From: a virus
Length of the DNA: 25,910 bases
Reading direction: 5' to 3' (one strand)
IMG/VR virus record: IMGVR_UViG_3300030107_000037
Location: 1-25,910 of that record
Shown here: piece after piece, positions 4,327-25,466 of the stretch
Layout: every line of letters begins with the position of its first letter
Numbering within the stretch: position 1 is the stretch's first letter
Program-made: the position numbers and the translations under genes
Notes under the pieces: generated by a model
Databases searched by the model: none
Told to the model about the DNA's origin: nothing
What the model saw: the letters and a program-made list of their open reading frames with translations, nothing else

Positions 4327-4993
4327 CATTCCTCACTTTAAAGCGTGGGTCAGAAGAGAATACACAAAAAACTTAGAAGAGTATCATGGAGAGTTCCTAC
4401 ATTGTATGGTTATTGGTGTCACTACTATGCCAAACCGGACTCTCAGCTTTCAAGTTATTTTTACAGGCTGCGAGTCTGATGATAGTGATAGCCCCAATAT
4501 ACATGGTGGTGCGATGTGGGCTAGATTACCTCTTATAGCTCTGGTGGCAGATACCCCCCTAGAAGATTGGCCTCAAGAGTTACCACCGTATCTAGCACAG
4601 CCTTGGGATTGTATGTCGCACCACCACAGTGTGTACAAATTAGAAAGAGCAACTCCAGCTCCTTGGATAGCCAAGGTAGACGGAGAGTTCTACCCAGCTA
4701 AATATTATTTTACTGTAGACTATACTGACAGTGAAGTTGCAGATGACCCAGCACAACATAAACAATCTCATGTATTGGAGTTGTTAGATGCTGGAGAGTA
4801 TACTGGTAACATGGTTGCGTTACCCAATAATAGAGTGAGAGTAACTCACCCAGCTTGGTTTGAAACAGGAGAAGGTGCTCCTGACTTTAGGCCAAATCAA
4901 CATATATACAACTCGAAAGAACACGTAGACTATGTTTGGGATACGCAACGAGTTTTTAATAATTTATATAGTGAGGATAAGGAATATCAATGA
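4307..4993 (+). CDS. conserved marine phage protein, 228 residues, unknown function
   Basis: This is an acidic, aromatic-rich protein with no signal peptide or membrane helix. The start at ATG 4307 overlaps the previous gene by 20 bases, with AAGGAAA upstream. Conserved-looking blocks include FTGCESDD, HGGAMWARLPLIALVADTPL, QPWDCMSHHHSVY, YPAKYYFTVDYTDSEVADDP, AQHKQSHVLEL and VALPNNRVRVTHPAWF. I recognise this type as a hypothetical protein common in marine phages. Clustered His, Cys and Asp residues could bind metal, but no known catalytic pattern is evident. It is the one large, non-basic gene inside a run of small basic ones. It overlaps the next start by ATGA. Confidence 0.85.
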   Translation: MAYLTSSIPHFKAWVRREYTKNLEEYHGEFLHCMVIGVTTMPNRTLSFQVIFTGCESDDSDSPNIHGGAMWARLPLIALVADTPLEDWPQELPPYLAQPWDCMSHHHSVYKLERATPAPWIAKVDGEFYPAKYYFTVDYTDSEVADDPAQHKQSHVLELLDAGEYTGNMVALPNNRVRVTHPAWFETGEGAPDFRPNQHIYNSKEHVDYVWDTQRVFNNLYSEDKEYQ

Positions 4994-5301
4994 AACATGG
5001 CATGAAGAAAAAAGGCTACGCAATGGGTGGCATGAAGAAAAAAGGTATGGCTAAAGGTGGTCTTAAAATGGTTAAGAATAAGGATGGAGACATGGTTCCA
5101 TTCTATGCAGCTGATGGCAAAGGTAAAATGAATAAAGGCGGCATGATGAAAAAAAAGGGCATGGCTAAAGGTGGAGCCATGATGAAGAAAAAAGCATATG
5201 CTAAAGGTGGTAGAGTTGCTATGTACAACCAAGGCGGCATGGTTAAAAATACAGGCACAATGAATACAGGTATTAAGACTGCCAAGAATACTTATAAATA
5301 A
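4990..5301 (+). CDS. low-complexity Lys/Met/Gly repeat protein
   Basis: The protein has 103 residues, built largely from repeats of the form MKKKGMAKGG (Gly-Gly at residues 13-14, 23-24, 50-51, 61-62, 73-74 and 82-83). A non-repeat insert, KNKDGDMVPFYAADGKGKM, lies at about residues 29-47. It has no acidic face and no membrane helix, so it is probably disordered and strongly cationic. The start ATG 4990 overlaps the previous stop (ATGA). The KGG-plus-KKK unit also ends the proteins at 2465 and 11048. Related repeat proteins occur in marine phage genomes without known function. DNA condensation inside the head or RNA binding is conceivable but untested. Confidence 0.8.
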   Translation: MKHGMKKKGYAMGGMKKKGMAKGGLKMVKNKDGDMVPFYAADGKGKMNKGGMMKKKGMAKGGAMMKKKAYAKGGRVAMYNQGGMVKNTGTMNTGIKTAKNTYK

Positions 5302-6280: not shown

Positions 6281-6445
6281 ATGTTTAAAGCATACTGTAA
6301 CCGAATCTTAGAAGCAATCCAAGTAGCACAGCAAAAACGAGCAGACTATCAAACACTAATGAATTTATCTGAACGTGAACTTAGAGATTTAGGAATTGGT
6401 AGATCTCAAATAAGAGAAAAAATTTATGGCGAGAGAACTCACTGA
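6281..6445 (+). CDS. DUF1127 (YjiS-like) small protein
   Basis: The protein has 54 residues. The segment LMNLSERELRDLGIGRSQIR (about residues 26-45) matches the signature of DUF1127 proteins, small Arg-rich proteins common in alpha- and gammaproteobacteria. The N-terminus is a helix with basic residues, as usual in the family. In host bacteria DUF1127 proteins have been reported to bind RNA (Rhodobacter CcaF1) or to act on phosphate signalling (Agrobacterium). A phage copy directly behind its own promoter, with a strong ribosome site AAAGGAGTAG, is unusual. It could alter host RNA or nutrient control. Its last 20 bases overlap the terminase small subunit gene. Confidence 0.8.
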   Translation: MFKAYCNRILEAIQVAQQKRADYQTLMNLSERELRDLGIGRSQIREKIYGERTH

Positions 6446-10864: not shown

Positions 10865-11055
10865 GCCTAAAATTAGTAGTTAATAATAAACCTCAATGGG
10901 ATGCAATGCTTGATGAGTTTAATATTCGTATTGCATTTGCTTATCGACAATTAGAACAACGAACAGAACTTGAAGAGATTTATAGACTTCAAGGAGAGAT
11001 TCGTGCATTAAAATCTTTAGCTATGCTTAGGGACAGAGTAAACGAAGATGGCTAA
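10861..11055 (+). CDS. small helical protein after portal
   Basis: The protein has 64 residues and is almost entirely helical with a heptad-like pattern (FNIRIAFAYRQLEQRTELEE, IYRLQGEIRALKSLAML), so probably a short coiled coil. The ATG at 10861 overlaps the portal stop (ATGA), and its 3' end overlaps the next gene by 8 bases, showing tight translational coupling. Small coiled-coil proteins occur in this slot in related marine podoviruses. The role may be head-assembly support, but it is not known to me. Confidence 0.75.
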   Translation: MSLKLVVNNKPQWDAMLDEFNIRIAFAYRQLEQRTELEEIYRLQGEIRALKSLAMLRDRVNEDG

Positions 11056-14000
11056 ACAATCTAGTATGTCACCACAAGACTATGCTCAATCTTATATGAA
11101 AGGATTGGGTATTACACCTATAGACGATGTTAATACAGATTTAACATTTAAAGATGCTGCGATTGGTGTTGGTAGTGTTTTGCCGGGAATTGGTACAGCT
11201 ATGACTGTATCAGAAATAGAAGAAGAATTAAAAAAAGAAAATCCCAGTTATGGTAAAATAGTTTTACTTGGTGGGTCTGAGTTAATTGGACTTATACCGG
11301 GTTTAGGTACTGCAGCAAAAGCTGGGTTAAGAAAAGTAGCTAAAAAGGTAGGTGCTAATAAAGTAGTAGATGCTTTAGATTCTATACCTGATTCAAAAGA
11401 TGTTGCAAAGAAACAAATATTAGCAGGGCCGGGTGCTGAAGGTTATAGTAATAGGTCACTGTATAAAGCTCAAGAATTAAAAGCTGAAGGGTATAGCCCT
11501 AAAGAAATTGAAGAAATAACAGGTAGAGTTCAAGTAGGTGGTCCAGAAGATTATGTTCCTAGTAAAAAAGTAAAATACCCACAGGTTCCTTTTAAGTTTG
11601 AAATACCAGATAAAGGTATTATAATTAGAAAAAATGATGGTTATATAACTTTAAGAGAAGCTAGTAAACAAAGACCTATTCGAGTTGGAAACCTAATACC
11701 AACGCATACAAAACTTTTTGAGCAATACCCCGACTTAAAAAATATTGGAGTCTATATAGACCCTAAACTAGGTAGTGGTGCTCATTTTGATATTACTGAC
11801 GGAAGTTATGGTTCGATTGTAATTGGCCCAGAGCATTCGGGTTATAAACAATTTTTAGCAGATGGTAATGTTAATAACCCTGAATTTAGAAGAGTTTTCT
11901 TTCACGAACTTCAACATGCAGCTCAAGCTAAAGATTTTCAACACGCTGCTTTAGAACAATTAGGTGGTGGCCCAGATGATTATGTTTTAACTGCTTCTGG
12001 AAGAAATCCATTTGGTGAGGATTTTGCAAAAGCTGCTATAAATAATAACCCTAAGCTTGTTGAAATTAGGGATAAGATGATAAAACTTTTTAAGGAAGAT
12101 ACTAGGGGGTTAGATGCTACCTCTAAAGTTGGTTTTGGTGGTAAGACATCTTTAGTTTATAGCAACCCCGAGACTGCCAAAAAAATGGCAGAGTTAATGA
12201 AAGAACTTGATTACGAAAGTTATAAAACATATCTACAGACAGCATCTGAAGTTGAAGCTGCAGTAGTAGGTGCTAGGGCAAAACCTACCTTTGCAAAAAA
12301 ACAACCATCAGTGTCTTCAGAAGTATCCAAAAGAAAAGATGTAGAAACCTATGCTGAGTATGCTCAAGGTTATTCAGATAGTAAAATTAAAAAACTTTTA
12401 AAAAGAATGACAACTAGAAAAGCCGATTTAACAGAGGAAGAAATTGAAAGTCTTACTAAAAGAGGTGTAAATTTTGTTAGGTATGCTGTTGGAATAGATG
12501 ACAAGATAGAAGGTATTGTTAAATATAGTGAAGGTGGATTAGTAGACACAGGTAAAAAAACTCCTGAAGGTAGAATTATTTGGAATGATGGAGGAAAAGA
12601 TTATTCTGAAAGAACTACTACGTTTGAAATAGACGGTAAGTGGTATACTATGCCAACAGTTGCAGAAGATGGATCACAGTATACTTCAGATCAAATTAGA
12701 GACTATGTAGCTAAGTACGGACCTATAGATTTTATAACTGGTGAAAAGTTACCAGAATTTAAAAGTAGAAAAGATGCTGAAGAGTATGCAACAAGTAGGT
12801 CAAACACTAGAAAGAGTTTTGATAAAGGTGGACTAGCAACACAGATGGATAATCTGTTTGATGCTGAAGGTCGAAGAAGACGTAAAGACAGACCTGTAGT
12901 TGAAGAGTATGTACATCCTCTAACAACTGTACCATTCTTTGATAGACCACTTGGTGCTAGCACTAGAGACCAAATAAAATTTATAGATGAAGATGGTAAT
13001 GCTCATTATGAAACTGTACTTGGTGATACATATACAATAAAACTAAATCCTGATCAAAGACGTTTTCATCAAAAATTTCAGGAGGATGTCCTTCCAGTTA
13101 TTAAAGAATATGTTAAAGATCCTAAACTACCAACTAAAAAACAAGCAGTTGATTTTGGTAAGGCAGTACTAGAAGAAACTGTAGATATTGCAAGTATACC
13201 GGGAGATGTGTTAACAGGTAAAAAATCTGCAGCTGAAATTACTAATATGGATATTCTAGATCTAGCTACTCTGACAAGTGTTGGTGCATCAGCTTTTAAT
13301 GTTCCAAAAGATTCATTAAGAATGGCTAGTGTAGCTGGAATGTTTGGAAGAAAGAAAACTCCAGTTGAAGAATATCTAACACCAGTTGAAGTTGATTTAG
13401 ACGAAAGTAAACTTGTAGATTTAATAGATGAAGATGCAAAAAAGTTTAAACTTTTTAATCCTAGATTACAAAACGAATTTAATTTAACTTATAACGATGT
13501 TATTAAACAAGAGTTTAAACCTTTAAAATTTGATGAGACTGGGGGAAGAAGATCTACACTTATAGATCCTAAAATTCATGGTAATAATAGATTAAAGTCT
13601 TACGTATCTAATAGAGTACTTGATAGATATACATCATTAATGGATGATTCTCAAGTAATTAAATCTATGGAGTTTAACCCAGCTGGCAAAGAAAAAGCTT
13701 TAAACGAGCTAGATGATTGGTTAAAAATAACCACTGATATAACATCTAATCAAGTTAAAGAAAAGTTTAATAGGTTTTTAACAGAGCAGCCCGGCCTAGT
13801 TTTAAAGTTATCAGCAGCAAATAAATTATTAAAAAAGTATAACGACCTAGATCAACAAGAAGGTATGTCTCCTGCAGAAATGCGTTTGGTTAGCTCAAAA
13901 CTTAGATCAGCAGATAATCTACAACAAGTTACTATGGCAGAAATACTAGATAGATTTTTTGATGAAACTGTTGTATATACTCCAGATCCCGGTCAAATTT

Positions 14001-17000
14001 TTAAAGATAGAAAATTTACATTTAAAGTAACTGACGTAGATGAAACCGGTGCTCAAATTCAAAGAGAGGTATCTCCAAATTTTAGTGGTGCATTTAAAGA
14101 CGAAGGTTGGGATTATGGCGTTTATAATTTTGACGAGGTGTATGGAAATGAAGGTTTAGAAAATACCTTTAGAAACCCTCTTGCCAGAGCTTTAGTAATG
14201 GAGTTTGGTGATAACGTAATAGATCCAAAAACCAAAGTAACTTATGTTGGTGAACGTAGAATGCTAGAGGGAGAAGATCTAACTCCAGCAGAAACTAGTC
14301 CAGAAGGTTTTGATACAGAAGTAACATTTCAGGACATAGTAGATTCTATCGATAAAAAACTAACGGATAAAAAAGAAGTAATAGACGTTGATACTGGAAA
14401 GTTTGAAAACCTTGGTGTAGAAATACTAACAGATTTTCTAGATAAAAAAACAGGTGGTCCTTACAATTTAAATGAAGAAAAATTATCTGAAACTGTACTA
14501 GGTGCAGATCTTTTAAAACTACTTGAAAACGATCCTAGAATGAATGTTAAAAACATTCCTGAGTTTATGAAAACTCAAGAATTTAAAAATAGAAGGATTA
14601 CTCTTCAAGATGTTGGAGAGAAAATAATAGATGATTTTGATGCAGCTACTTTTAATGTTAGAGCTTCTCCATTAACTACACCTAGGTATGATACTTATCA
14701 ACTACAAGGTGAAGCTGGATTTGAAGGCGGTGCTAAAGATAAAACCTATGAAGTTCCTATATTTAGTCGGTATGGGGATGGTAGTTTAATGGGTGCTGCA
14801 CCGGGTTATCAGCCTCAAGTAGATCATTATGGTACTGATACATTATCTCATGTAAGATTTAGTGTATATGAACCTTCAAGGGCACTTAGAATTACAGATC
14901 AAGATACAGGTATATTTGACTCTTTAATAGACAATAAGGATTTTATTTTAGTAGAAGAACTTCAATCAGACTTACTAGCTCACGGCTATCGAAAATTTAA
15001 AAAGATTCCTTACACAGTAGAAAAAACTAAACGAGTTGTAGATGCAGCAATTTTTAATCGAAAAGATCTATATCCAGAAGCATCAGAATATTTTAAAATT
15101 TATTCAGACGATCTTTCAAAAGATATAACTGAATTTTTTGATCAGTTAGATAACACACCTCCTCAAGAAACAGGTAAGTATCTGCCAAACAATCCTGATA
15201 AAGGCATACCAGATCCTGATAAAGTTTCTATGAAGTTAGCTAATAAATATACAGAGCGTATACAAAAAGATATAGCAGATGGTAAAATTACTATGGGAGA
15301 GGGAGATGATGCCCAAGAACTATTATCTCAGATTTTAACTTATGTACAAGAACCCGGTTATTTTGCTTCAGAGAGTAAATACATATTAGGTAATAAAAAT
15401 ATAGCTAGACAAAGAGCTATAAATAAAGATGCAAGAAGAAACCCAAAAAAATTTGGATCTCCACCTATTAAAAAGAATATTGAATCTGTTGAGTTAAATA
15501 TACAAACTTTAATTAATCAAGCTAATGATATGGGTATAGATAAAATTGTCTTTCCTCATTTTGATATGATTGCTGCAATGAGATTTAAGGGTGCTTCATT
15601 AAAAGCTGCAATAAATAATAAATCAATTAAAAGGGATCTTTTTGGTGATCTTATATTTGATAATGATGGTGATCCTGTTCTTACAGATGGTAACGCTCTC
15701 TATCGAAATTATGTAACAGATTTTAATAAAGCTTTAAATAAATTTAAAACAGAATATCCAGAAATAAAAATAGAAACTGGCGTAGAATTACCATATAAAC
15801 CTTTTGCAGGAACTGAAAATCTTAGGACAGACGGTGTAGTAATTGACATATCAGAAATGAAAAAAATATACGATTTAGAAAAACCAAAATTTGCCGAAGG
15901 AGGCGTAATAATGAAAGATCAAATGCAGATGGCCTTTATGCAAGAAGGTGGTTTAAGAGATGACGGTATGGATGTAGATCCAGTGTCAGGTAACGAAATA
16001 CCTTCGGGTTCTATGGCTAGTGAGGTTCGAGATGATATACCGGCTCAACTATCCGAAGGTGAGTATGTAGTTCCTGCTGATGTCGTACAATACTTTGGTG
16101 TAAAGTTTTTTGAAGATTTAAGAATGGAAGCTAAAAGAGGTTTAGCTGACATGGAATCTAATGGTAGAATAGGTGGTGAGCCTATAGATATGCCAATGGA
16201 TATGCCAATGAATCAGGGTGGTATGATGCAGACTAAAGAGCAGACAGTACCAACAGATACAGGTGTAGCTTATAATGTTGGTGGTATGACATCAAACCTT
16301 TATAACAATCCTACTAGAATGGATCAACAAGTTAATGCTGTTAGTTCTAATATGGGTAGCAATCCTCAAGGTATGGATATGCAAAACCGTACTCAAGCTA
16401 TGATGACTCCTGAACAGATGGATCAAGTTAATCCACCACCGCCACCTAGAGGTTTTAATCCCGGTGGTCTAACTGGCAATGAAGCTGCAGCTTATAATTA
16501 TGTTACAACTCCTACTATGCCTAATCCCATGTATCAAACTCCCGGAGCTAGTTATATGTATGCAGCTCCACCACAGCTAACAACAACTGCACAAGAAACA
16601 ACACCTTCAGTTGAATATTGTGATGGAGTAGGTATGGACTATGATCCAATTACAAAAATGTGTATACCTAGACCAATAGAACAAACACCACAAGGTAGTG
16701 AGGATAATGATGATCCCGGTACTAATTTACCTAAAGTAGAACCTGATAAGTGGATGGAAGATTTTGACTACAGTGGTACTGACGAAGGTATGCAAAACTT
16801 ACTACAACAAAGTTTAGATTTACTAGATCCACCAGAAAGAACAGGATTTGGTGGAGCAGTTGCTGGTCTTTTAGATAAAGGAATTTTTGGTAAGTTTAGT
16901 GCAGGAAGTAACGCTGCAAAAGTAGCTGCTAACATAATTATACTTGATCATTATGGTGTAGATACAACAGCATTAAGTACAAAATATAAAAATTATGTAG

Positions 17001-17518
17001 AAGCTAACTTAAGCGGTGTTCCACGAGGGTTATATAATGGAGACTCTTTTGCTAAACAAGCTGCTATAAAACATGGTTTAAGTTTAGGTCGTGGTGCTGT
17101 AGATCCATTCGAAAATCCAATATTTAAAAGTAAAGAAGACTACAGAAAGTTTCTTGAAAACTCTGAAAGAAAAGAAAACATTAGACGTAGATATTCAGAA
17201 ATGGACATTAGTCCTCTAAGAAGCACAGGTAAAGAGTTAACTGAAAAACAAAAACAAGATGCTAAGAGTGATGCTGGATTAGCAGAAGCAGCTAAAATTA
17301 TTGCTAGACAAGGTGATGATGGACCAACTGCTGCACAAAAAGCTGCTGCTCGAAAAAGAGGTGATGAAATTAGCAAGCGACAAAAAGAAAAAATAATAGC
17401 TTCTGGCGATACCTACTCAACTGATACTAAAAAAGCACTAAAACAAATGAAGGATAGAGGTACGTTTAACGTAGGTGGTCGTAACAAAGGCGGCTTAATG
17501 AAAAAGAAAAAGAAATAA
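11048..17518 (+). CDS. giant multidomain polyvalent protein with HELQH metallopeptidase-like domain
   Basis: The protein has 2156 residues in one frame. In order: a Gly-rich hydrophobic region (about 40-95, GVGSVLPGIGTAM); a peptidase-like domain with HELQH (286-290) and a probable third zinc ligand in SEVEA (400-404); KYSEGGL (492-498); a small domain seen in phage virion proteins (WYTMPTVAEDGSQYTSDQIR); FDKGGL (591-596); a block with IPGDVLTGKK (about 717); and an unassigned middle. The C-terminal half holds a domain with VEELQSDLLAHGYRK (1302-1316), its partner segment QANDMGIDKIVFPHFD, EVRDDIPAQLSEGEYVVPAD (about 1660-1680), a Met/Gln/Pro-rich stretch and a KGGLMKKKKK end. This layout fits phage polyvalent proteins, thought to travel in the virion and enter the host. 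The location between portal and scaffold agrees. Confidence 0.8.
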   Translation: MAKQSSMSPQDYAQSYMKGLGITPIDDVNTDLTFKDAAIGVGSVLPGIGTAMTVSEIEEELKKENPSYGKIVLLGGSELIGLIPGLGTAAKAGLRKVAKKVGANKVVDALDSIPDSKDVAKKQILAGPGAEGYSNRSLYKAQELKAEGYSPKEIEEITGRVQVGGPEDYVPSKKVKYPQVPFKFEIPDKGIIIRKNDGYITLREASKQRPIRVGNLIPTHTKLFEQYPDLKNIGVYIDPKLGSGAHFDITDGSYGSIVIGPEHSGYKQFLADGNVNNPEFRRVFFHELQHAAQAKDFQHAALEQLGGGPDDYVLTASGRNPFGEDFAKAAINNNPKLVEIRDKMIKLFKEDTRGLDATSKVGFGGKTSLVYSNPETAKKMAELMKELDYESYKTYLQTASEVEAAVVGARAKPTFAKKQPSVSSEVSKRKDVETYAEYAQGYSDSKIKKLLKRMTTRKADLTEEEIESLTKRGVNFVRYAVGIDDKIEGIVKYSEGGLVDTGKKTPEGRIIWNDGGKDYSERTTTFEIDGKWYTMPTVAEDGSQYTSDQIRDYVAKYGPIDFITGEKLPEFKSRKDAEEYATSRSNTRKSFDKGGLATQMDNLFDAEGRRRRKDRPVVEEYVHPLTTVPFFDRPLGASTRDQIKFIDEDGNAHYETVLGDTYTIKLNPDQRRFHQKFQEDVLPVIKEYVKDPKLPTKKQAVDFGKAVLEETVDIASIPGDVLTGKKSAAEITNMDILDLATLTSVGASAFNVPKDSLRMASVAGMFGRKKTPVEEYLTPVEVDLDESKLVDLIDEDAKKFKLFNPRLQNEFNLTYNDVIKQEFKPLKFDETGGRRSTLIDPKIHGNNRLKSYVSNRVLDRYTSLMDDSQVIKSMEFNPAGKEKALNELDDWLKITTDITSNQVKEKFNRFLTEQPGLVLKLSAANKLLKKYNDLDQQEGMSPAEMRLVSSKLRSADNLQQVTMAEILDRFFDETVVYTPDPGQIFKDRKFTFKVTDVDETGAQIQREVSPNFSGAFKDEGWDYGVYNFDEVYGNEGLENTFRNPLARALVMEFGDNVIDPKTKVTYVGERRMLEGEDLTPAETSPEGFDTEVTFQDIVDSIDKKLTDKKEVIDVDTGKFENLGVEILTDFLDKKTGGPYNLNEEKLSETVLGADLLKLLENDPRMNVKNIPEFMKTQEFKNRRITLQDVGEKIIDDFDAATFNVRASPLTTPRYDTYQLQGEAGFEGGAKDKTYEVPIFSRYGDGSLMGAAPGYQPQVDHYGTDTLSHVRFSVYEPSRALRITDQDTGIFDSLIDNKDFILVEELQSDLLAHGYRKFKKIPYTVEKTKRVVDAAIFNRKDLYPEASEYFKIYSDDLSKDITEFFDQLDNTPPQETGKYLPNNPDKGIPDPDKVSMKLANKYTERIQKDIADGKITMGEGDDAQELLSQILTYVQEPGYFASESKYILGNKNIARQRAINKDARRNPKKFGSPPIKKNIESVELNIQTLINQANDMGIDKIVFPHFDMIAAMRFKGASLKAAINNKSIKRDLFGDLIFDNDGDPVLTDGNALYRNYVTDFNKALNKFKTEYPEIKIETGVELPYKPFAGTENLRTDGVVIDISEMKKIYDLEKPKFAEGGVIMKDQMQMAFMQEGGLRDDGMDVDPVSGNEIPSGSMASEVRDDIPAQLSEGEYVVPADVVQYFGVKFFEDLRMEAKRGLADMESNGRIGGEPIDMPMDMPMNQGGMMQTKEQTVPTDTGVAYNVGGMTSNLYNNPTRMDQQVNAVSSNMGSNPQGMDMQNRTQAMMTPEQMDQVNPPPPPRGFNPGGLTGNEAAAYNYVTTPTMPNPMYQTPGASYMYAAPPQLTTTAQETTPSVEYCDGVGMDYDPITKMCIPRPIEQTPQGSEDNDDPGTNLPKVEPDKWMEDFDYSGTDEGMQNLLQQSLDLLDPPERTGFGGAVAGLLDKGIFGKFSAGSNAAKVAANIIILDHYGVDTTALSTKYKNYVEANLSGVPRGLYNGDSFAKQAAIKHGLSLGRGAVDPFENPIFKSKEDYRKFLENSERKENIRRRYSEMDISPLRSTGKELTEKQKQDAKSDAGLAEAAKIIARQGDDGPTAAQKAAARKRGDEISKRQKEKIIASGDTYSTDTKKALKQMKDRGTFNVGGRNKGGLMKKKKK

Positions 17519-18768: not shown

Positions 18769-19842
18769 ATGGCATTTACATCCGCATCGGGTTACGGAAA
18801 CCTACCTAACGGTAATTTTTCATCCGTAATCTATTCTAAAAAGGTACAGCTTGCTTTTCGCAAGTCTACCGTTGCTGGTGATATTACAAACTCTGATTAT
18901 TTTGGGGAGATTGCTGCTCAAGGTGATACAGTGAAAATCATCAAAGAACCTGAAATCTCAGTTAGTTCTTATGCTCGTGGTACAACAATTACTGCACAAG
19001 ATCTTGACGATGAAGATTTCTCACTTGTTGTTGATAAGTCAAATTATTTTGCCTTTAAAATTGACGACATTGAAGAAGCTCACTCACATGTGAACTTCAT
19101 GGACTTGGCTACAAACCGAGCCGCATATCGTTTATCTGATCAGTACGACCAAGAAGTTCTTGGCTACTTGTCAGGTTTCAAACAGTCTGCTTTACATGCT
19201 AAAGCTGATACAGTTAACGACCAAGTAAATGGTACAAAAGCTGTTTCAAGCGCAGGTACAGACGAATTGTTATCAAGCATGAAGCTGAAAAAAGGCGACT
19301 TTGGTAATATTACAACTACTTCTGCTGGGGATCACTCAATTCCACTAGCAGCACGTTTACCCGGAGCAACAGCTCTACCAACTGCCACAGCTTCACCAGC
19401 AATGGTTGTAGCTCGTATGGCTCGTTTACTTGATCAACAACAGGTTGATAAAGATGGACGTTGGTTAGTAGTTGATCCAGTATTCATGGAACTTCTTGCA
19501 GACGAAGATTCACGTTTCTTCAATGCAGATTTCGGTGAGTCAGGTGGACTACGTAACGGTCTTGCTGTGAATAACTTCCACGGTTTTCGTGTTTATTCAT
19601 CCAGCAATTTACCAGCAGTTGGCACTGGACCGGGAACAACTGGTTCCGCAAACCAAAATGCTAACTTCGGTGTAATCGTTGCAGGTCATGATTCTGCTGT
19701 CGCAACTGCGGAGCAAATCAATAAGACCGAAACATATCGTGATCCTGACAGCTTTGCTGACATTGTTCGTGGTATGCACCTTTATGGACGTAAAATTTTA
19801 CGCCCAGAAGGTATTGTAACCGCTAAATATAACGCAGCATAG
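18769..19842 (+). CDS. major capsid (coat) protein
   Basis: The protein has 357 residues and follows scaffold behind a strong promoter and ribosome site. The sequence reads as an HK97-fold coat protein of the podovirus type. An N-terminal arm with VIYSKKVQLAFRKSTVAGDI and GDTVKIIKEPEISVSSYARG is followed by a helix region VNFMDLATNRAAYRLSDQYD (the long spine helix). The A-domain portion contains MARLLDQQQVDKDGRWLVVD, and the chain ends HLYGRKILRPEGIVTAKYNA. No protease cleavage is evident. It assembles on the scaffold and forms the shell that terminase fills. Length is normal for the family. Confidence 0.9.
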   Translation: MAFTSASGYGNLPNGNFSSVIYSKKVQLAFRKSTVAGDITNSDYFGEIAAQGDTVKIIKEPEISVSSYARGTTITAQDLDDEDFSLVVDKSNYFAFKIDDIEEAHSHVNFMDLATNRAAYRLSDQYDQEVLGYLSGFKQSALHAKADTVNDQVNGTKAVSSAGTDELLSSMKLKKGDFGNITTTSAGDHSIPLAARLPGATALPTATASPAMVVARMARLLDQQQVDKDGRWLVVDPVFMELLADEDSRFFNADFGESGGLRNGLAVNNFHGFRVYSSSNLPAVGTGPGTTGSANQNANFGVIVAGHDSAVATAEQINKTETYRDPDSFADIVRGMHLYGRKILRPEGIVTAKYNAA

Positions 19843-20439: not shown

Positions 20440-20832
20440 ATGATACTTAAAGCTAAGAATAAATTATCTGATTGGGATGTTAGGGTATTCAACATAAGTG
20501 AAGTGTATTCACAAATGGATGAAGCTGCCTTATTAGATAGAAATTTTTTAGCTGCTATAAAGAAATCACTAGATAATAATGGAATGCTTTGGCCTCCTAT
20601 AGTTTGGACACAAGAAACTTTTTTAGTTTATTGTCAAGAGCAACCACATAGACAAGACCCTAACAAACTTATAGACATAAATTTAAAGTATCGTTGTGCT
20701 ATAGGAAACAATAGATTTAACTACGCTAAAGAAAATGGATATAAACAAATAGAATGTGTTTATGTTCCAACTTGGCAAGATAAAGATGCAGTATTAAAAA
20801 TAACTAAAATGGAATACTGTGTAGACTTTTAA
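20440..20832 (+). CDS. ParB/sulfiredoxin-like small protein
   Basis: The protein has 130 residues with no clear ribosome site before ATG 20440. The pattern AIKKSLDNNGMLWPPIVW, then LKYRCAIGNNRFNYAKENGY and KQIECVYV, resembles the ParB N-terminal/sulfiredoxin-like fold. In that fold a 'P-I-V' strand and a G-x-x-R-x-x-A/Y helix segment form a nucleotide- or DNA-interacting site (compare the ParB box GxxR). The usual ParB helix-turn-helix is absent. It lies just past a terminator-like hairpin, between head and tail genes, where it fits none of the structural roles. It may be a late-acquired cargo gene or a DNA-binding or modification factor. The fold call is moderate; the function is unknown. 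Confidence 0.6.
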   Translation: MILKAKNKLSDWDVRVFNISEVYSQMDEAALLDRNFLAAIKKSLDNNGMLWPPIVWTQETFLVYCQEQPHRQDPNKLIDINLKYRCAIGNNRFNYAKENGYKQIECVYVPTWQDKDAVLKITKMEYCVDF

Positions 20833-20849: not shown

Positions 20850-21287
20850 ATGGCTATTACAACAGCAATGTGTACAAGTTTTAAAGCAGAACTTCTTGGT
20901 GGTATCCATGATTTGGATACACACACTATAAAATTAGCATTAATTAAATCATCTATGTCTGGTACATATAATGCAGCTACCACTAATTATTCAGATGTTA
21001 CAGGTAACTCTGATGAAGCTAGTGGCACTAACTATTCTGCAGGTGGTCAAAACCTAGATAGTCCTGCTATTACTACGTCTGGAACTACTGCAATGGTAGA
21101 CTTTGCAGATGAAGTATTTTCAAATGTAACAACTTCAGCAGATGGTTGTATTATATATAATTCTTCTGCATCAAACAAAGCTATTTGTGTAATTGATTTT
21201 GGTGGTACAGTTAGTGCTACAGCAGGTGATTTAACTATTGAGTTTCCTGCAGTAGGAACAAGCACTGCAGTAATACGTATTGCCTAA
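20850..21287 (+). CDS. small beta-rich virion protein
   Basis: The protein has 145 residues and starts at ATG 20850 after AAAAGGATT. It is Ser/Thr/Ala/Gly-rich with alternating strands. The opening MAITTAMCTSFKAELLGGIH followed by HTIKLALIKSSMSG is a recurrent phage motif. GTNYSAGGQNLDSPAITTSG, MVDFADEVFSNVTTSADGCI and CVIDFGGTVSATAGDLTIEF complete a compact beta sandwich. Proteins of this type occur in many tailed phages near tail or neck genes as structural proteins without a fixed name. The place before the tail tubular genes agrees. Confidence 0.78.
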   Translation: MAITTAMCTSFKAELLGGIHDLDTHTIKLALIKSSMSGTYNAATTNYSDVTGNSDEASGTNYSAGGQNLDSPAITTSGTTAMVDFADEVFSNVTTSADGCIIYNSSASNKAICVIDFGGTVSATAGDLTIEFPAVGTSTAVIRIA

Positions 21288-21297
21288 GAGATAAATT

Positions 21298-22035
21298 ATG
21301 GCAGTCGTAGCAGCTTCAGCTAAGTATGGTGTTGGTGTATATGGTGCATCTAGTTTTGGTGCAGTAAATATATCAAGAACTCTTTCTGGAGTTGCAGGTA
21401 CAGGTGCTATTCAACCCGTTGCAATTAACGGTTTTGAAATAGATATATCTGAAAGACTTGGTAGTGTAAGTGCTGCAGGTGCAATCGGAACAATATCTCC
21501 AAACATAGCACCGAACATAACAGGTGTATCTGCAACAGGTGCTATAAATGCATCTTTTAAATTTAGTAATACACATAGTCTTAGTGGAGCATCATCAACA
21601 GGTAGTATAGCTACTGTTGGTGCTGGTGTATCGACTTCACTAACAGGTGTGTCAGGTACAGGTGCAGTAGAGTCTGTTTCAGCAGGTGGTTTTGAAATAG
21701 ACATTAGTGAAAAACTAGCTAGTGTATCTGCAACAGGTGCTATAAATGCAGTACAACCAGTTGTAAGTTTTTCTACTTCACTTACTGGTGTTAGTGGTAC
21801 ATTAGAACTAGGCAGTATAGAAGCTAAAACTGATGAAAAACTAGGTAGTGTACAGGGTACAACTTCTTTAGGTACAATTACAACACACACTAGTACAGCT
21901 ATAACTTCAGTAAGTTTAACAGGAGATATAGGTTTTGCTAGATCAAATGTAACAGCAATAGTGTTTGACTACAATGCAGTAAAACATTTGTACAATAAAA
22001 GAAGAACCGTTAATTTACCTGAAAGAGCAGCGTAA
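21298..22035 (+). CDS. tandem-repeat beta protein, likely virion or fibre-associated
   Basis: The protein has 245 residues, and most of it is about nine degenerate repeats of 20-25 residues around the pattern L-(S/T)-G-V-S-x-T-G-A-I-x-x-V. Two units carry an identical insert GGFEIDIS/NGFEIDIS (about residues 42-50 and 123-131). A 29-base DNA repeat (21524-21552 and 21722-21750, 198 bases or 66 codons apart) marks a recent in-frame duplication. A different C-terminal cap follows (about 218-245), with FDYNAVKHLYNKRRTVN. The repeats should stack as a beta solenoid or fibrous rod. The next gene carries one repeat unit and a related cap, so the two are paralogous. Confidence 0.75.
   Translation: MAVVAASAKYGVGVYGASSFGAVNISRTLSGVAGTGAIQPVAINGFEIDISERLGSVSAAGAIGTISPNIAPNITGVSATGAINASFKFSNTHSLSGASSTGSIATVGAGVSTSLTGVSGTGAVESVSAGGFEIDISEKLASVSATGAINAVQPVVSFSTSLTGVSGTLELGSIEAKTDEKLGSVQGTTSLGTITTHTSTAITSVSLTGDIGFARSNVTAIVFDYNAVKHLYNKRRTVNLPERAA
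21524..21750 (+). repeat. 29-bp exact direct repeat marking duplicated repeat units
   Basis: Positions 21524-21552 and 21722-21750 are identical over 29 bases, and the surrounding units are clearly similar. The 198-base spacing is a multiple of three, so recombination between the copies would delete or add exactly 66 codons in frame. Such a pair offers a route to length variation of the repeat protein. Confidence 0.85.
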
Positions 22036-22217
22036 TGCCTAGTCAAACATTAACTGGTGTAACATCTACAAACTCTGTTGGAACACTGTCTACAAATGTA
22101 GTAAATGGACCAACTAATGGTGCAAGAACATCTTTAGTTATAGCAGAATTAAGAAAAGTATATATTGCTCGTAAACCTACATCAGAAGATAGAGTTGTTT
22201 ACGCAAATGAGGATTAA
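22035..22217 (+). CDS. short single-repeat paralogue of the preceding protein
   Basis: The protein has 60 residues and starts at ATG 22035, overlapping the previous stop (TAATG). Residues 4-17 (QTLTGVTSTNSVGTLS) repeat the unit seen nine times in the gene before. The end VIAELRKVYIARKPTSEDRV resembles the cap of the previous protein (a VYI/LYN-x-R-R/K stretch). This looks like a one-repeat version of the same protein, or the piece from which the larger one grew. It may be a small fibre-base or neck subunit, but no function is known. Confidence 0.7.
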   Translation: MPSQTLTGVTSTNSVGTLSTNVVNGPTNGARTSLVIAELRKVYIARKPTSEDRVVYANED

Positions 22218-22220
22218 CAT

Positions 22221-22568
22221 ATGAGTTTTCGTTGGCCTAGTAAAGACCCAGATGAAACGTTAGATTATAGTGTAGATTGGTCAAGATTTCTTGATACTGC
22301 AATTATTACTTCAGTAATATGGTTTGTAAAGTCTTCATTATATAATACTAAAACAAGAATAGATCCCGGTCAAACTTTAACAACAGCTTCAAGTAGTGCA
22401 ACAACTGATAGTTTACAAAATGTTGCACAAACAAATACAAATACTGTTGCTACTATAAATATTGGTGGTGGACAAAATAATGTTGAGTATACTTTTTTTT
22501 GTCAAATGACTGATAATACTGGCAGTACAGCAGAAAGAAGTATTAAAATAAGATTGAAGGAACGGTAA
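22221..22568 (+). CDS. small structural protein with Ig-like appearance
   Basis: The protein has 115 residues. The N-terminal block FRWPSKDPDETLDYSVDWSR followed by FLDTAIITSVIWFV is found in a recurrent phage family. The C-terminal part, INIGGGQNNVEYTFFCQMTD with NTGSTAERSIKIRLKER, looks like the closing strands of an Ig-like or fibronectin-like domain. The start is ATG 22221, three bases after the previous stop. It directly precedes tail tubular protein A, so a neck or tail-attached role is likely. Confidence 0.78.
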   Translation: MSFRWPSKDPDETLDYSVDWSRFLDTAIITSVIWFVKSSLYNTKTRIDPGQTLTTASSSATTDSLQNVAQTNTNTVATINIGGGQNNVEYTFFCQMTDNTGSTAERSIKIRLKER

Positions 22569-23285
22569 ATGGCATATAATTTTCTTGGACTTGTTAATGA
22601 TGTAAACCGTAGACTTAATGAAGTTGAATTAACTTCTTCAAATTTTCTTAATGCAGTTGGTGCATATAGTATGGTTAAAGATGCTGTTAATGCATCTATT
22701 CGTTTTATTAATCAACATGAATTTGAATGGCCTTACAACCATGTTACAGAAGAAGAAACTCTTACTCCCGGAATTGTAAGGTATGCATTTCCTGCCGACA
22801 CTAAAGTTTTAAATATGAACAGCTTTAGAATAAAAAGAAATGATACATTAGGTAACGAAACTAAAAAATTAAATATACTAACTTATGAAGAATACCTTGA
22901 CAGTTATGCAGATGTAGAGTATAATACCTCAACGTCTTTAAGAGCATGTCCAACTCTTGTTTTTAAAGCGCCTAGTTCAGAGTTTGGTTTAGTTAGCGCA
23001 CCAGATAAAGCTTATGAATTAGTTTATGAATATTATAGATTACCTGTCGATTTAATAAATGCTACAGATGTTCCAAGTATTCCTGAACAATTTAGATATG
23101 TAATTGTAAATGGTGCTATGCACTTTACTTATTTATTTAGAGGTGAAAGTCAAGAAGCCGCAATGATGCAAGGTAGATTTGAACAAGAAATAAAACAGAT
23201 GAGAAGTTTGTATATTAACCGTTATGATTATCTTAGATCAACTGTTGTAAATACTACAGTTCAGACAAACGCTAGAGTTTCTTAA
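22569..23285 (+). CDS. tail tubular protein A (T7 gp11-like adaptor)
   Basis: The protein has 238 residues, a normal length for the family that forms the ring between portal and tail nozzle in T7-like phages. An N-terminal helical part has VNDVNRRLNEVELTSSNFLN and AVNASIRFINQHEFEWPYNH. A beta portion contains TPGIVRYAFPADTKVLNMNS and YELVYEYYRLPVDLINATDV. The C-terminal helix (EAAMMQGRFEQEIKQMRSLY) with YDYLRSTVVNT is diagnostic. It is followed directly by the nozzle protein. A perfect promoter sequence is embedded in its coding region at 22897-22925. Confidence 0.85.
   Translation: MAYNFLGLVNDVNRRLNEVELTSSNFLNAVGAYSMVKDAVNASIRFINQHEFEWPYNHVTEEETLTPGIVRYAFPADTKVLNMNSFRIKRNDTLGNETKKLNILTYEEYLDSYADVEYNTSTSLRACPTLVFKAPSSEFGLVSAPDKAYELVYEYYRLPVDLINATDVPSIPEQFRYVIVNGAMHFTYLFRGESQEAAMMQGRFEQEIKQMRSLYINRYDYLRSTVVNTTVQTNARVS
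22897..22925 (+). promoter_or_regulatory. perfect sigma70 promoter sequence inside the tail tubular A gene
   Basis: TTGACA (22897-22902), exactly 17 bp, then TATAAT (22920-22925) match the full consensus in sense direction, within codons for LDSYADVEYN. If active it would start near 22932 and give extra mRNA for the tail tubular B and fibre genes. A coding coincidence is possible, because Asp/Tyr/Asn codons supply much of the sequence. Confidence 0.5.
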
Positions 23286-23288
23286 TAA

Positions 23289-25466
23289 ATGCCTACAACT
23301 CACCAAACATATCCTGTAGAGTTCAGGGGTGGGCTTATTAGTAATATGAGTCCTTTGCAGCAAGGTATTAATATGCCGGGATCTGCAAGAACTCTTAGAA
23401 ACTTTGAACCTTCTGTTGAAGGTGGTTATCGTAGAATAGAGGGTTATACTAAGTACGACAGTAACTTAATACCACCTTATGGTTCTCCTGTAGTAACTGG
23501 TGCGAGTCAAACTGGTACAAGCCTTAATATAGCTAATATAAGAACAACTCCAGTTGCTGCTGATACATTTAAACTTATACATGCTACAGCAAATGTAAAT
23601 GGTGCTACTAGTAATGCTACTGCACTTGTATTAGATGGTAACTCTGGTACTATTGTTGCAGGTATGACAGTTACAGGTACTGGTATTTCAGGAACAGTAA
23701 CAGTAGCTTCAGTATCAGATCAAAATAATATTGTGCTTTCTGATGCACAAACATTAGCTAATGATACAGCATTAACTTTTAGTAAAGTATATACTATTGC
23801 AAGTGGTGGTGTTAGTTTTAATAGTACAAATAGAACTGCTACTTTAACTTTAACTTCTAGTCTTCTTACTTCGCCATCAAACGAAGACTCTTTAGAGTTT
23901 GTTTCTACTACTAATAATTACTTAGCATTAGGTTGTGGTGTATTTTTAGATAGTGTTATTGTTGCTAAAAATAGTGACTTATTCAAAACTACAGGTTCAG
24001 GCTATACTCTTTTAAATGTTCCTTCTTATGGAACTGTTTTAGTAAATGGTGGATCACAAAGTGGTACAAGTCTTGTAGTAGATGGTCTTACAGATACACC
24101 TCAAGCAGGTGATGTGTTTAAAGTTGCAGGTATAGATAAGATATACACTGTTACATCTAATGCAAGTGTAAGCTCTGGTGGTGCAACATTAGCAATAGCA
24201 CCTGCTTTAGCAAGCGCACCTGCAGATAATGCTGCTGTAACTTTTTTAAGTACATCAAGAGAAAGTGCTAGTAAAACTAGATTTTCTAGATATAACTATG
24301 ATGGAACAGAAAAAATAGCTATTGTAGATGGTCAAAATGTACCTGCTACATTTACACAAACAAGTACATTTACAAAACTTATTGATGCACCTACAGATGT
24401 AACAGGTGCAGATTTTGTAGTCAACTTTAAAAATCATTTATTTTTTGGTAAAGATAATCTATTAACTTTTACTGCACCATATACAGATAATGATTTTACA
24501 GCAGCTAATGGTTCAGGTGTAATCAGTGTCGGTGCTGATATAACTGGATTAATAGTATTTAGACAACAGTTAATAATATTTACAGAGTCATCTATATTTC
24601 AATTAACTGGTAACAGTGTTGGAGATTTTACACTACAATCTATTACACTGGATATTGGCTGCACTAATCCAGATACTATACAAGAAGTTGGTGGAGACAT
24701 AATGTTTCTTGCACCAGATGGTTTAAGACTTTTAAGTGCAACAGATAGAATAGGTGATTTTGGGTTAGCAGTTGTATCTAAACCAATACAAAAAGAAGTT
24801 ACAGATTTTGTAACTAGAAACACTTCTTTTGCTAGTGTTGTTATAAGAGAAAAATCTCAATATAGAATACTTGGATACAATGCTAATATTACTCAAGGCT
24901 CTTCAATGGGTATATTAGGAACTCAATTTGAAGCTCAAGGTGGTCAAGGAATGTCTTGGGGAAATTTAAGGGGTATTAGAGCCTACGTAGCAGACAGTAG
25001 ATTTTATCAAAATACAGAAACAATAGTATTTGCAAACGATGATGGCTACTTATATAAAATGGAAGATGGTAATAGTTTTGATGGAGCAAATATTCAAACT
25101 GATTTTTCTACTCCATTTTTACCAATGAATGATCCAAGAATTAGAAAAACATTTTATAAAATGAATATATATACTGATGCAAAAGGAAGTGTTGCATTAA
25201 ACTCAAATTTAAAATTAGATTTTGATAATGAAGGAAGTATACAACCAGAACAAATTAGTTTAAGTAATGCAACTTCTGCTGCATCATTTTATGGAACTTC
25301 AGTTTTTGGCACAGATACTTATGGAAGTAAATTAAAAACACTTTTTGAATCACAAGTAATAGGATCAGGTTTTGTCGTATCTTTACAATTTACATCTGAT
25401 AGCACTGATCCACCATTTTCTTTAGATGCTATCACATTAGAGTACGGAACAAATACAAGAAGGTAA
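23289..25466 (+). CDS. tail tubular protein B (T7 gp12-like nozzle) with inserted beta modules
   Basis: The protein has 725 residues. The N-terminus FRGGLISNMSPLQQGINMPG with ARTLRNFEPSVEGGYRRIEG and the later part FKNHLFFGKDNLLTFTAPYT, SVGADITGLIVFRQQLIIFT, GDIMFLAPDGLRLLSATDRI are typical of nozzle proteins that close the tail. Two related inserted modules start at Tyr64 (YGSPVVTGASQTGTSL) and Tyr247 (YGTVLVNGGSQSGTSL). The first copy also contains a further beta module (about 98-164, with GTIVAGMTVTGTGISGTVTV) that the second copy lacks. Such insertions vary between related phages and may extend the nozzle surface. The start ATG 23289 follows the tail tubular A stop by three bases. Confidence 0.85.
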   Translation: MPTTHQTYPVEFRGGLISNMSPLQQGINMPGSARTLRNFEPSVEGGYRRIEGYTKYDSNLIPPYGSPVVTGASQTGTSLNIANIRTTPVAADTFKLIHATANVNGATSNATALVLDGNSGTIVAGMTVTGTGISGTVTVASVSDQNNIVLSDAQTLANDTALTFSKVYTIASGGVSFNSTNRTATLTLTSSLLTSPSNEDSLEFVSTTNNYLALGCGVFLDSVIVAKNSDLFKTTGSGYTLLNVPSYGTVLVNGGSQSGTSLVVDGLTDTPQAGDVFKVAGIDKIYTVTSNASVSSGGATLAIAPALASAPADNAAVTFLSTSRESASKTRFSRYNYDGTEKIAIVDGQNVPATFTQTSTFTKLIDAPTDVTGADFVVNFKNHLFFGKDNLLTFTAPYTDNDFTAANGSGVISVGADITGLIVFRQQLIIFTESSIFQLTGNSVGDFTLQSITLDIGCTNPDTIQEVGGDIMFLAPDGLRLLSATDRIGDFGLAVVSKPIQKEVTDFVTRNTSFASVVIREKSQYRILGYNANITQGSSMGILGTQFEAQGGQGMSWGNLRGIRAYVADSRFYQNTETIVFANDDGYLYKMEDGNSFDGANIQTDFSTPFLPMNDPRIRKTFYKMNIYTDAKGSVALNSNLKLDFDNEGSIQPEQISLSNATSAASFYGTSVFGTDTYGSKLKTLFESQVIGSGFVVSLQFTSDSTDPPFSLDAITLEYGTNTRR

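Follow-up and report, generated by a model that had tools for sequence, protein, structure and literature searches.

Bead-chain fibres in described phages

The closest described counterpart of the locus analysed here is fibre I of phage GP4 (PDB 8JOU, titled 'Fiber I and fiber-tail-adaptor of phage GP4'), with the Pfam families Gp80 (PF23140) and Gp77 (PF23148). In the paper on the GP4 structure (J Mol Biol 2023, 435:168258), gp80 dimers are reportedly linked by an elongated 'rope protein', and the adaptor is said to be 15-fold. Among relatives of GP4, the phages BcepIL02, BcepMigl, Itty13 and POI1126 encode a Gp80 protein (PF23140), then a protein of 246-285 amino acids and then gp77, with one extra gene between the middle protein and gp77 in BcepMigl. 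The Gp80 of these BcepIL02-type phages matches 8jou_a (10 chains) in the PDB. The middle proteins, which are without known relatives and for which no PDB homologue was found, have a lag-20 period that is pronounced in BcepIL02 (z 9.1) and POI1126 (z 6.7) and weaker in BcepMigl and Itty13 (z 2.6-3.0), and they bear R-x-[VLI]-x-V motifs near the C-terminus. In BcepIL02, the gp80-type, middle (gp56) and gp77 proteins are all three annotated by the depositors as virion-associated, and gp56 has about 11 units, as read from the periodicity analysis, compared with 10 gp80 chains in 8jou.

Such assemblies exist or are proposed elsewhere, according to two further reports (PMC10966104, PMC13243795). In the Anabaena myophage A-1(L), five bead-chain neck fibres stand on a 15-fold neck ring, and the recombinant fibre, obtained by co-expression, has about 14 bead trimers per chain (PMC10966104). 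The likeness to the putative fibre of the window would lie in the bead-chain fibres anchored to a neck ring; the difference is that trimeric gp81 beads are joined through gp82 and gp80, and no repeat rope is described in the passages on this fibre (PMC10966104). In Alishewanella phage LSH1, the 'extra structural module' consists of the three genes gp34-gp35-gp36, which always occur together (PMC13243795). It resembles the present locus in combining an unpredictable, possibly repetitive protein bearing a payload domain with a GP4-fibre-I-like dimer and an Ig-fold protein, and differs in belonging to a siphovirus and in its payload, an N-terminal polysaccharide-lyase-like domain, the likeness being drawn from the description of the module (PMC13243795).

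The locus and its gene neighbourhood

The window, that is, the whole stretch of 25,910 nucleotides that was analysed, is a fragment of an HMO-2011-type marine podovirus. This placement comes from nucleotide matches and from the genes for terminase, capsid and tail, with a portal and an adaptor of the SU10 type. The nearest isolate is Roseobacter phage CRP-345 (74% over 68% of a 4.5-kb query), and HMO-2011 and several CRP phages are further nucleotide matches of the capsid gene. The HMO-2011 type ranks with the most abundant phage groups in the sea (PMC9038755). The capsid gene (18769-19842) is followed by those of a 178-aa protein, a 130-aa protein, p145, REP, p60, a gp77-type protein, the adaptor and a tail/nozzle-like protein, with the following features.

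20850..21287, + strand: p145, 145-aa putative bead protein, phrog_644 (function unknown), by PHROG match and 21 homologues
21298..22035, + strand: REP, 245-aa repeat protein and putative rope, with an N-terminal segment, nine units of 20-25 aa and a short C-terminal segment, from sequence
21382..21960, + strand: the nine REP repeat units, starting at 21382, 21457, 21517, 21580, 21640, 21715, 21781, 21841 and 21901, by self-match analysis
21524..21552, + strand: 29-bp exact direct repeat, copy 1, from sequence
21722..21750, + strand: 29-bp exact direct repeat, copy 2, 198 bp downstream of copy 1
22000..22017, + strand: RRTVNL, the sole C-terminal R-x-V-x-L motif of REP, from sequence and motif counts in relatives
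22033..22037, + strand: TAATG overlap of the REP stop and the p60 start, from sequence, with putative translational coupling
22035..22217, + strand: p60, 60-aa putative anchor, one rope unit and then three R-x-V-x-V-type motifs ending PTSEDRVVYANED, by the three-motif profile
22221..22568, + strand: gp77-type fibre-tail adaptor, Ig-like, Pfam PF23148 Gp77 (E 1.3e-14, 54.9 bits, cutoff 27)
22569..23285, + strand: head-to-tail adaptor, SU10_adaptor family (PF24175, 70.4 bits)
23289..25466, + strand: tail/nozzle-like protein, named by position (PHROG 5107 and 1302 matches, DTP-pb9 domain)

The order p145, REP, (p60), gp77 and adaptor is retained in nearly all IMG/VR relatives, p145 sometimes lying a few genes upstream of REP, and the REP gene of the relatives is always located within the neck/tail gene order, adjoining the Gp77-type adaptor. 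The best PDB profile match of the gp77-type protein in the window is 8jou_D, a weak one (E 0.017). As in GP4 fibre I, an adaptor of the Gp77 family adjoins the putative fibre genes.

The repeat protein REP

An earlier reading of the sequence had counted nine repeats in the 245-aa gene, and this count holds: the units start at residues 29, 54, 74, 95, 115, 140, 162, 182 and 202, the best internal self-match scores 144 while none of 300 shuffles exceeds 76, and the periodicity peaks at lag 20 (z 5.9). The strongest self-match lies at lag 86, not 66. The repeats are real, but the consensus first given, L(S/T)GVSxTGAI, is stricter than the actual one, which is approximately [LI]-x-[GS]-[VA]-x-x-[TA]-x-x-[IVL]. 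No relatives of REP were found in Pfam, PHROG or the PDB, and no paper mentioning the motif was found.

The relatives are designated here by L numbers. A LamG/concanavalin-like lectin domain (PF13385) is inserted between rope units in L037:2842-4365 and L054:3357-4835, and a LamG-like stretch is also visible in the rope homologues of L038 and L042; the suggestion that REP is an adhesin is supported for such relatives and for them only. The rope homologue L032:1879-3222 has two N-terminal-like segments, YGTGVYG... and YGLGEYG..., and the domain between them (FYLRGVAKPALTF...YYCTVHGDAMGN) looks cupredoxin-like, with no Pfam match. In the first-unit linker (REP residues ~38-46), L003 reads IQPVAINGFEID and L004 reads IESVSAGGFEID, the latter nearly copying the fifth-unit linker VESVSAGGFEID, which looks like gene conversion between repeats.

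The small gene p60 and the R-x-V-x-V motif array

The single repeat claimed for the 60-residue gene is present as LTGVTSTNSV, and p60 also matches the three-motif profile with 43.3 bits (best shuffle 7.6), placing it in the motif-array family, with one rope unit in place of the usual N-terminus. Most small-gene relatives have no LTGV unit; in 33-62 aa they string together three or five R-x-V-x-V motifs, and PTSADRVVYANED is a common ending. LTGV units are restricted to a subset of the 60-80-aa members, such as the small gene of L003 (80 aa, two units) and those of the window and L004 (60 aa, one unit). The gene had been taken for a one-repeat paralogue of REP, of which the rope unit stands; the rest belongs to a separate motif-array family that acquired this unit. 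The two C-terminal caps, considered related, have no more than one short R-x-V-x-[LI] motif in common in the window, and their relationship becomes clear only across the family. The origin of p60 as a whole-gene duplicate of REP was rejected, as most family members lack the LTGV unit.

The motif array is encoded either by a gene of its own or, often where that gene is absent, at the C-terminal end of REP. None of the 16 REPs with at least three C-terminal motifs has a small gene, compared with 95 of the 122 having fewer (Fisher p 8e-10, uncorrected for shared ancestry), and the three-motif profile finds REP C-termini above all shuffles in L112, L124, L016, L128, L102 and others. This separate-or-fused array argues that the products of REP and of the small gene act together.

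Regarding their expression, 86 of the 95 distinct pairs of REP and small gene overlap by one base, the final base of the REP stop codon being the first of the small gene. Production of p60 by a programmed frameshift from REP was rejected: p60 is in another frame, but its own ATG is conserved, as is the TAATG overlap, making stop-start coupling the simpler explanation.

The putative bead protein p145

The mean column identity of p145 among its 21 homologues is 89%, compared with 41% for REP, a contrast that would be expected for a bead fitting many units. In addition, the isolates of the HMO-2011 type that have p145 are exactly those in which gp77 and REP were found, namely CRP-345, CRP-207 and CRP-603 (with a weak REP match in CRP-603); searches of the others detected none of the three (Fisher p 0.002, about 15 isolates). 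Outside the HMO-2011-type group, the gene after a p145-family gene was readable at 152 loci and encodes a repeat protein of the LTGVxxTGxVG type at 71 of them, about half of the distant p145 relatives having no recognisable repeat protein next to them. In the aquatic phage DSL-LC04 (L222), which has a distant p145 homologue, the next gene encodes an LTGVQGTGQVG-type protein with a period of 22. The conservation contrast, the co-occurrence in three isolates and the repeat proteins following distant p145 genes give independent support to the pairing of p145 with REP.

The AF2 model of p145 has a pLDDT of 74, and the Foldseek search with this model placed 8jou_a, of GP4 fibre I, at rank 2 of 350,542 PDB chains over the full length, the match being weak (E 0.19, prob 0.33, TM 0.35, rmsd 9.5). 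As the bead hypothesis preceded the search, this match is suggestive and not proof. By sequence, no Gp80 (PF23140) match up to E 10 was seen in a Pfam scan of 34 p145-family members, hhalign of p145 against gp80 in three alignments gave E 0.2-0.3 with no homology detected, and profile HMM searches between the two did no better than shuffled decoys. Therefore, homology of p145 to gp80 is not claimed, and formal membership in GP4 fibre I is not established for this locus, the Gp80 sequence test having failed.

Comparison with the GP4-type phages

By position, p145 would correspond to gp80 and REP to the rope. The BcepIL02-type relatives of GP4 share with the window the succession of a bead, a repeat protein with a 20-aa period and C-terminal R-x-V-x-V motifs, and gp77, and the lag-20 z of 5.9 of REP falls among their values of 9.1, 6.7, 3.0 and 2.6. 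The differences are that p145 has no detectable sequence similarity to gp80 besides its weak fold match, that the repeats are of the LTGVSATG type in REP and of the A-x-[ML]-x-L type in the GP4-type proteins, and that many HMO-2011-type phages have an extra small anchor gene of the p60 family. In the window, the motif array is mostly located in p60. An hhalign comparison of REP with the rope candidates of GP4-type phages aligned nothing beyond the C-terminal motif (E 0.088).

In a Gordonia and a Mycobacterium phage, a Gp80 gene is followed by repeat-rich proteins, of which the mycobacterial one ends in an R-x-V-x-V array. In Mycobacterium phage CELFI, the minor tail protein gp23 (L394:2840-5140), encoded downstream of a Gp80-family protein, has such an array at its end, which suggests the same anchor principle in actinobacterial siphophages.

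Length variation of the putative rope

The IMG/VR scans yielded 138 distinct REP sequences adjoining a gp77 gene. Complete homologues are between 182 and 673 aa long, or 934 aa for the longest frame, and approximately 4 to 20 units were detected in them, these counts being approximate because the unit HMM misses degenerate units (it finds seven of the nine in the window). Closely related viruses gain and lose single repeat units: the REPs of L130/L134 (468 aa), L136 (446 aa) and L131 (512 aa) differ by single 22-codon units, L130 and L136 being separated by one 66-bp gap at 97.8% DNA identity with flanking proteins 99.7% identical, and L134 and L131 by two unit-sized gaps at 98.7% identity. 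Moreover, L103 and L106 are about three units apart with flanks 94% identical, and two copies of the C-terminal motif set L089 apart from L092. The repeat number thus varies across relatives, and the proposal of a length-variable virion part is supported by the 182-673 aa range, the single 66-bp unit changes and the neck/tail position.

The exact 29-base direct repeats 198 bases apart were confirmed. They had been thought to allow the loss or gain of 66 codons, and no such allele was found: the complete members of the close group (L001-L009) all have 245 aa, and the identity of the two copies is private to the window and L001, being absent in L002-L005 among the relatives checked.

A probable bead-on-rope fibre and its alternatives

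The gene order, the gp77 family, the BcepIL02-type counterparts, the co-occurrence, the conservation contrast, the 66-bp changes and the mutual exclusion of motif array and small gene together support the reading that REP is probably part of the virion structure and serves as the rope in a bead-on-rope fibre at the head-tail junction, where its number of units would set the fibre length. Each REP unit of 20-22 residues would bind one copy of p145 (or half a dimer), and the number of units would then determine the number of beads per fibre and the fibre length, with nine to ten beads here, near the ten gp80 of 8JOU. The R-x-V-x-V motifs of the REP C-terminus and of p60, as β-strands, would add to the Ig sheets of gp77 and so tether the fibre, while a ring of gp77-type Ig adaptors would sit on the head-tail adaptor. 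The p60 protein may be a detached, translation-coupled piece of the rope anchor that gained one rope unit in this lineage. The repeat protein is thus real, varies in length and probably belongs to the virion, and most likely it forms a bead-on-rope fibre that functions in the manner of GP4 fibre I. Against this reading weigh the negative sequence comparisons of p145 with gp80, the weakness of the Foldseek match, the failed structure prediction of REP, an alignment with the GP4-type rope candidates confined to the C-terminal motif, the failure to find virion proteomics for this group, and the distant p145 genes that no recognisable repeat protein follows.

The alternative that survives best, though it seems unlikely, is that REP trimerises into the shaft of a conventional tail fibre (T7/SU10-like or a triple β-spiral) docked on the tail adaptor, p145 being an unrelated decoration or cement protein. 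Short β-rich repeats with much Gly, Thr and Ser suit fibrous trimers, some REP homologues have LamG lectin-like domains as fibres do, and the long fibres of SU10 dock on the adaptor (PMC9509320). AlphaFold, given 22 sequences, predicted single-chain REP with a mean pLDDT of 36.8, a pTM of 0.28 and no solenoid, and a failed monomer prediction is what an obligate trimer would give. However, REP is linked to p145 and gp77 by its conservation and by the gene order, the GP4-type counterparts lie between gp80 and gp77, the R-x-V-x-V arrays resemble anchoring tails instead of a receptor tip, and in CRP-345 another gene, downstream of those for the tail, is the putative tail fibre gene.

The same prediction bears on a β-solenoid, a virion adhesin or rod in which each repeat would be a coil, which the sequence-only reading had proposed to check by structure prediction. 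The 20-22-residue period would be compatible with β-helix coils and the length changes are unit-wise, but no solenoid coils appeared in this single-chain prediction and REP has no Pfam, PHROG or PDB relative, so the solenoid was rejected as unsupported and is very improbable. From the 'rod' first suggested, a structural part of variable length is retained; 'rope' fits better, given the missing solenoid support and the GP4-type arrangement, in which such a protein is paired with a fibre-forming bead. Least credible of all is a non-structural role of REP and p60, as an assembly chaperone or a secreted decoy merely located in the structural cluster, which is compatible with our finding no direct virion proteomics for the HMO-2011-type group but is opposed by the conserved position among neck/tail genes and by the virion-associated annotation of the BcepIL02 counterpart gp56.

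Returning to the bead-on-rope fibre, a broader proposal can be put forward tentatively, namely that the repeat count may be an encoded ruler for the length of a neck/tail whisker, with one 20-22-aa unit per bead subunit, and that the bead and rope pair may form a fibre system which is widespread in aquatic and actinobacterial phages but so far unannotated. Gain and loss of single units would tune this system, and its modular anchor would shift between a gene of its own and the rope tail. Tape measure proteins are comparable in that the length of a protein sets that of a virion part; they act inside the tail tube on the length of the tube, whereas the rope would stay in place within an external fibre, where its ruler role is proposed. 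The fibre genes of HMO-2011-type phages carry the annotation 'hypothetical', and, if the reading is true, three or four of them (bead, rope, anchor and ring) would be named at once. It would also account for the low-complexity LTGVSATG-repeat proteins, a class common in phage metagenomes, and offer a simple case of a fast-evolving repeat number setting the length of a virus appendage.

Other features of the window

Between the 178-aa gene and p145, the 130-aa ORF (20440-20832) has weak ParB-like PHROG matches and occurs at this place in some relatives only, being an optional insertion in the structural cluster. A 2156-aa ORF without Pfam match (11048-17518), located between the portal and capsid genes, carries FHELQHAAQ, an HExxH zinc-protease-like motif, and its counterparts vary greatly in size among relatives (about 1246 aa in CRP-345 and about 438 aa in CRP-603). 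The 54-aa protein encoded at 6281-6445 has a DUF1127 domain (PF06568), a small domain known mainly from alphaproteobacterial hosts, and one is annotated at a similar position in CRP-603. Finally, a 103-aa protein rich in Lys, Gly and Met (4990-5301) is built of MKKKGMAKGG-like tandem repeats.
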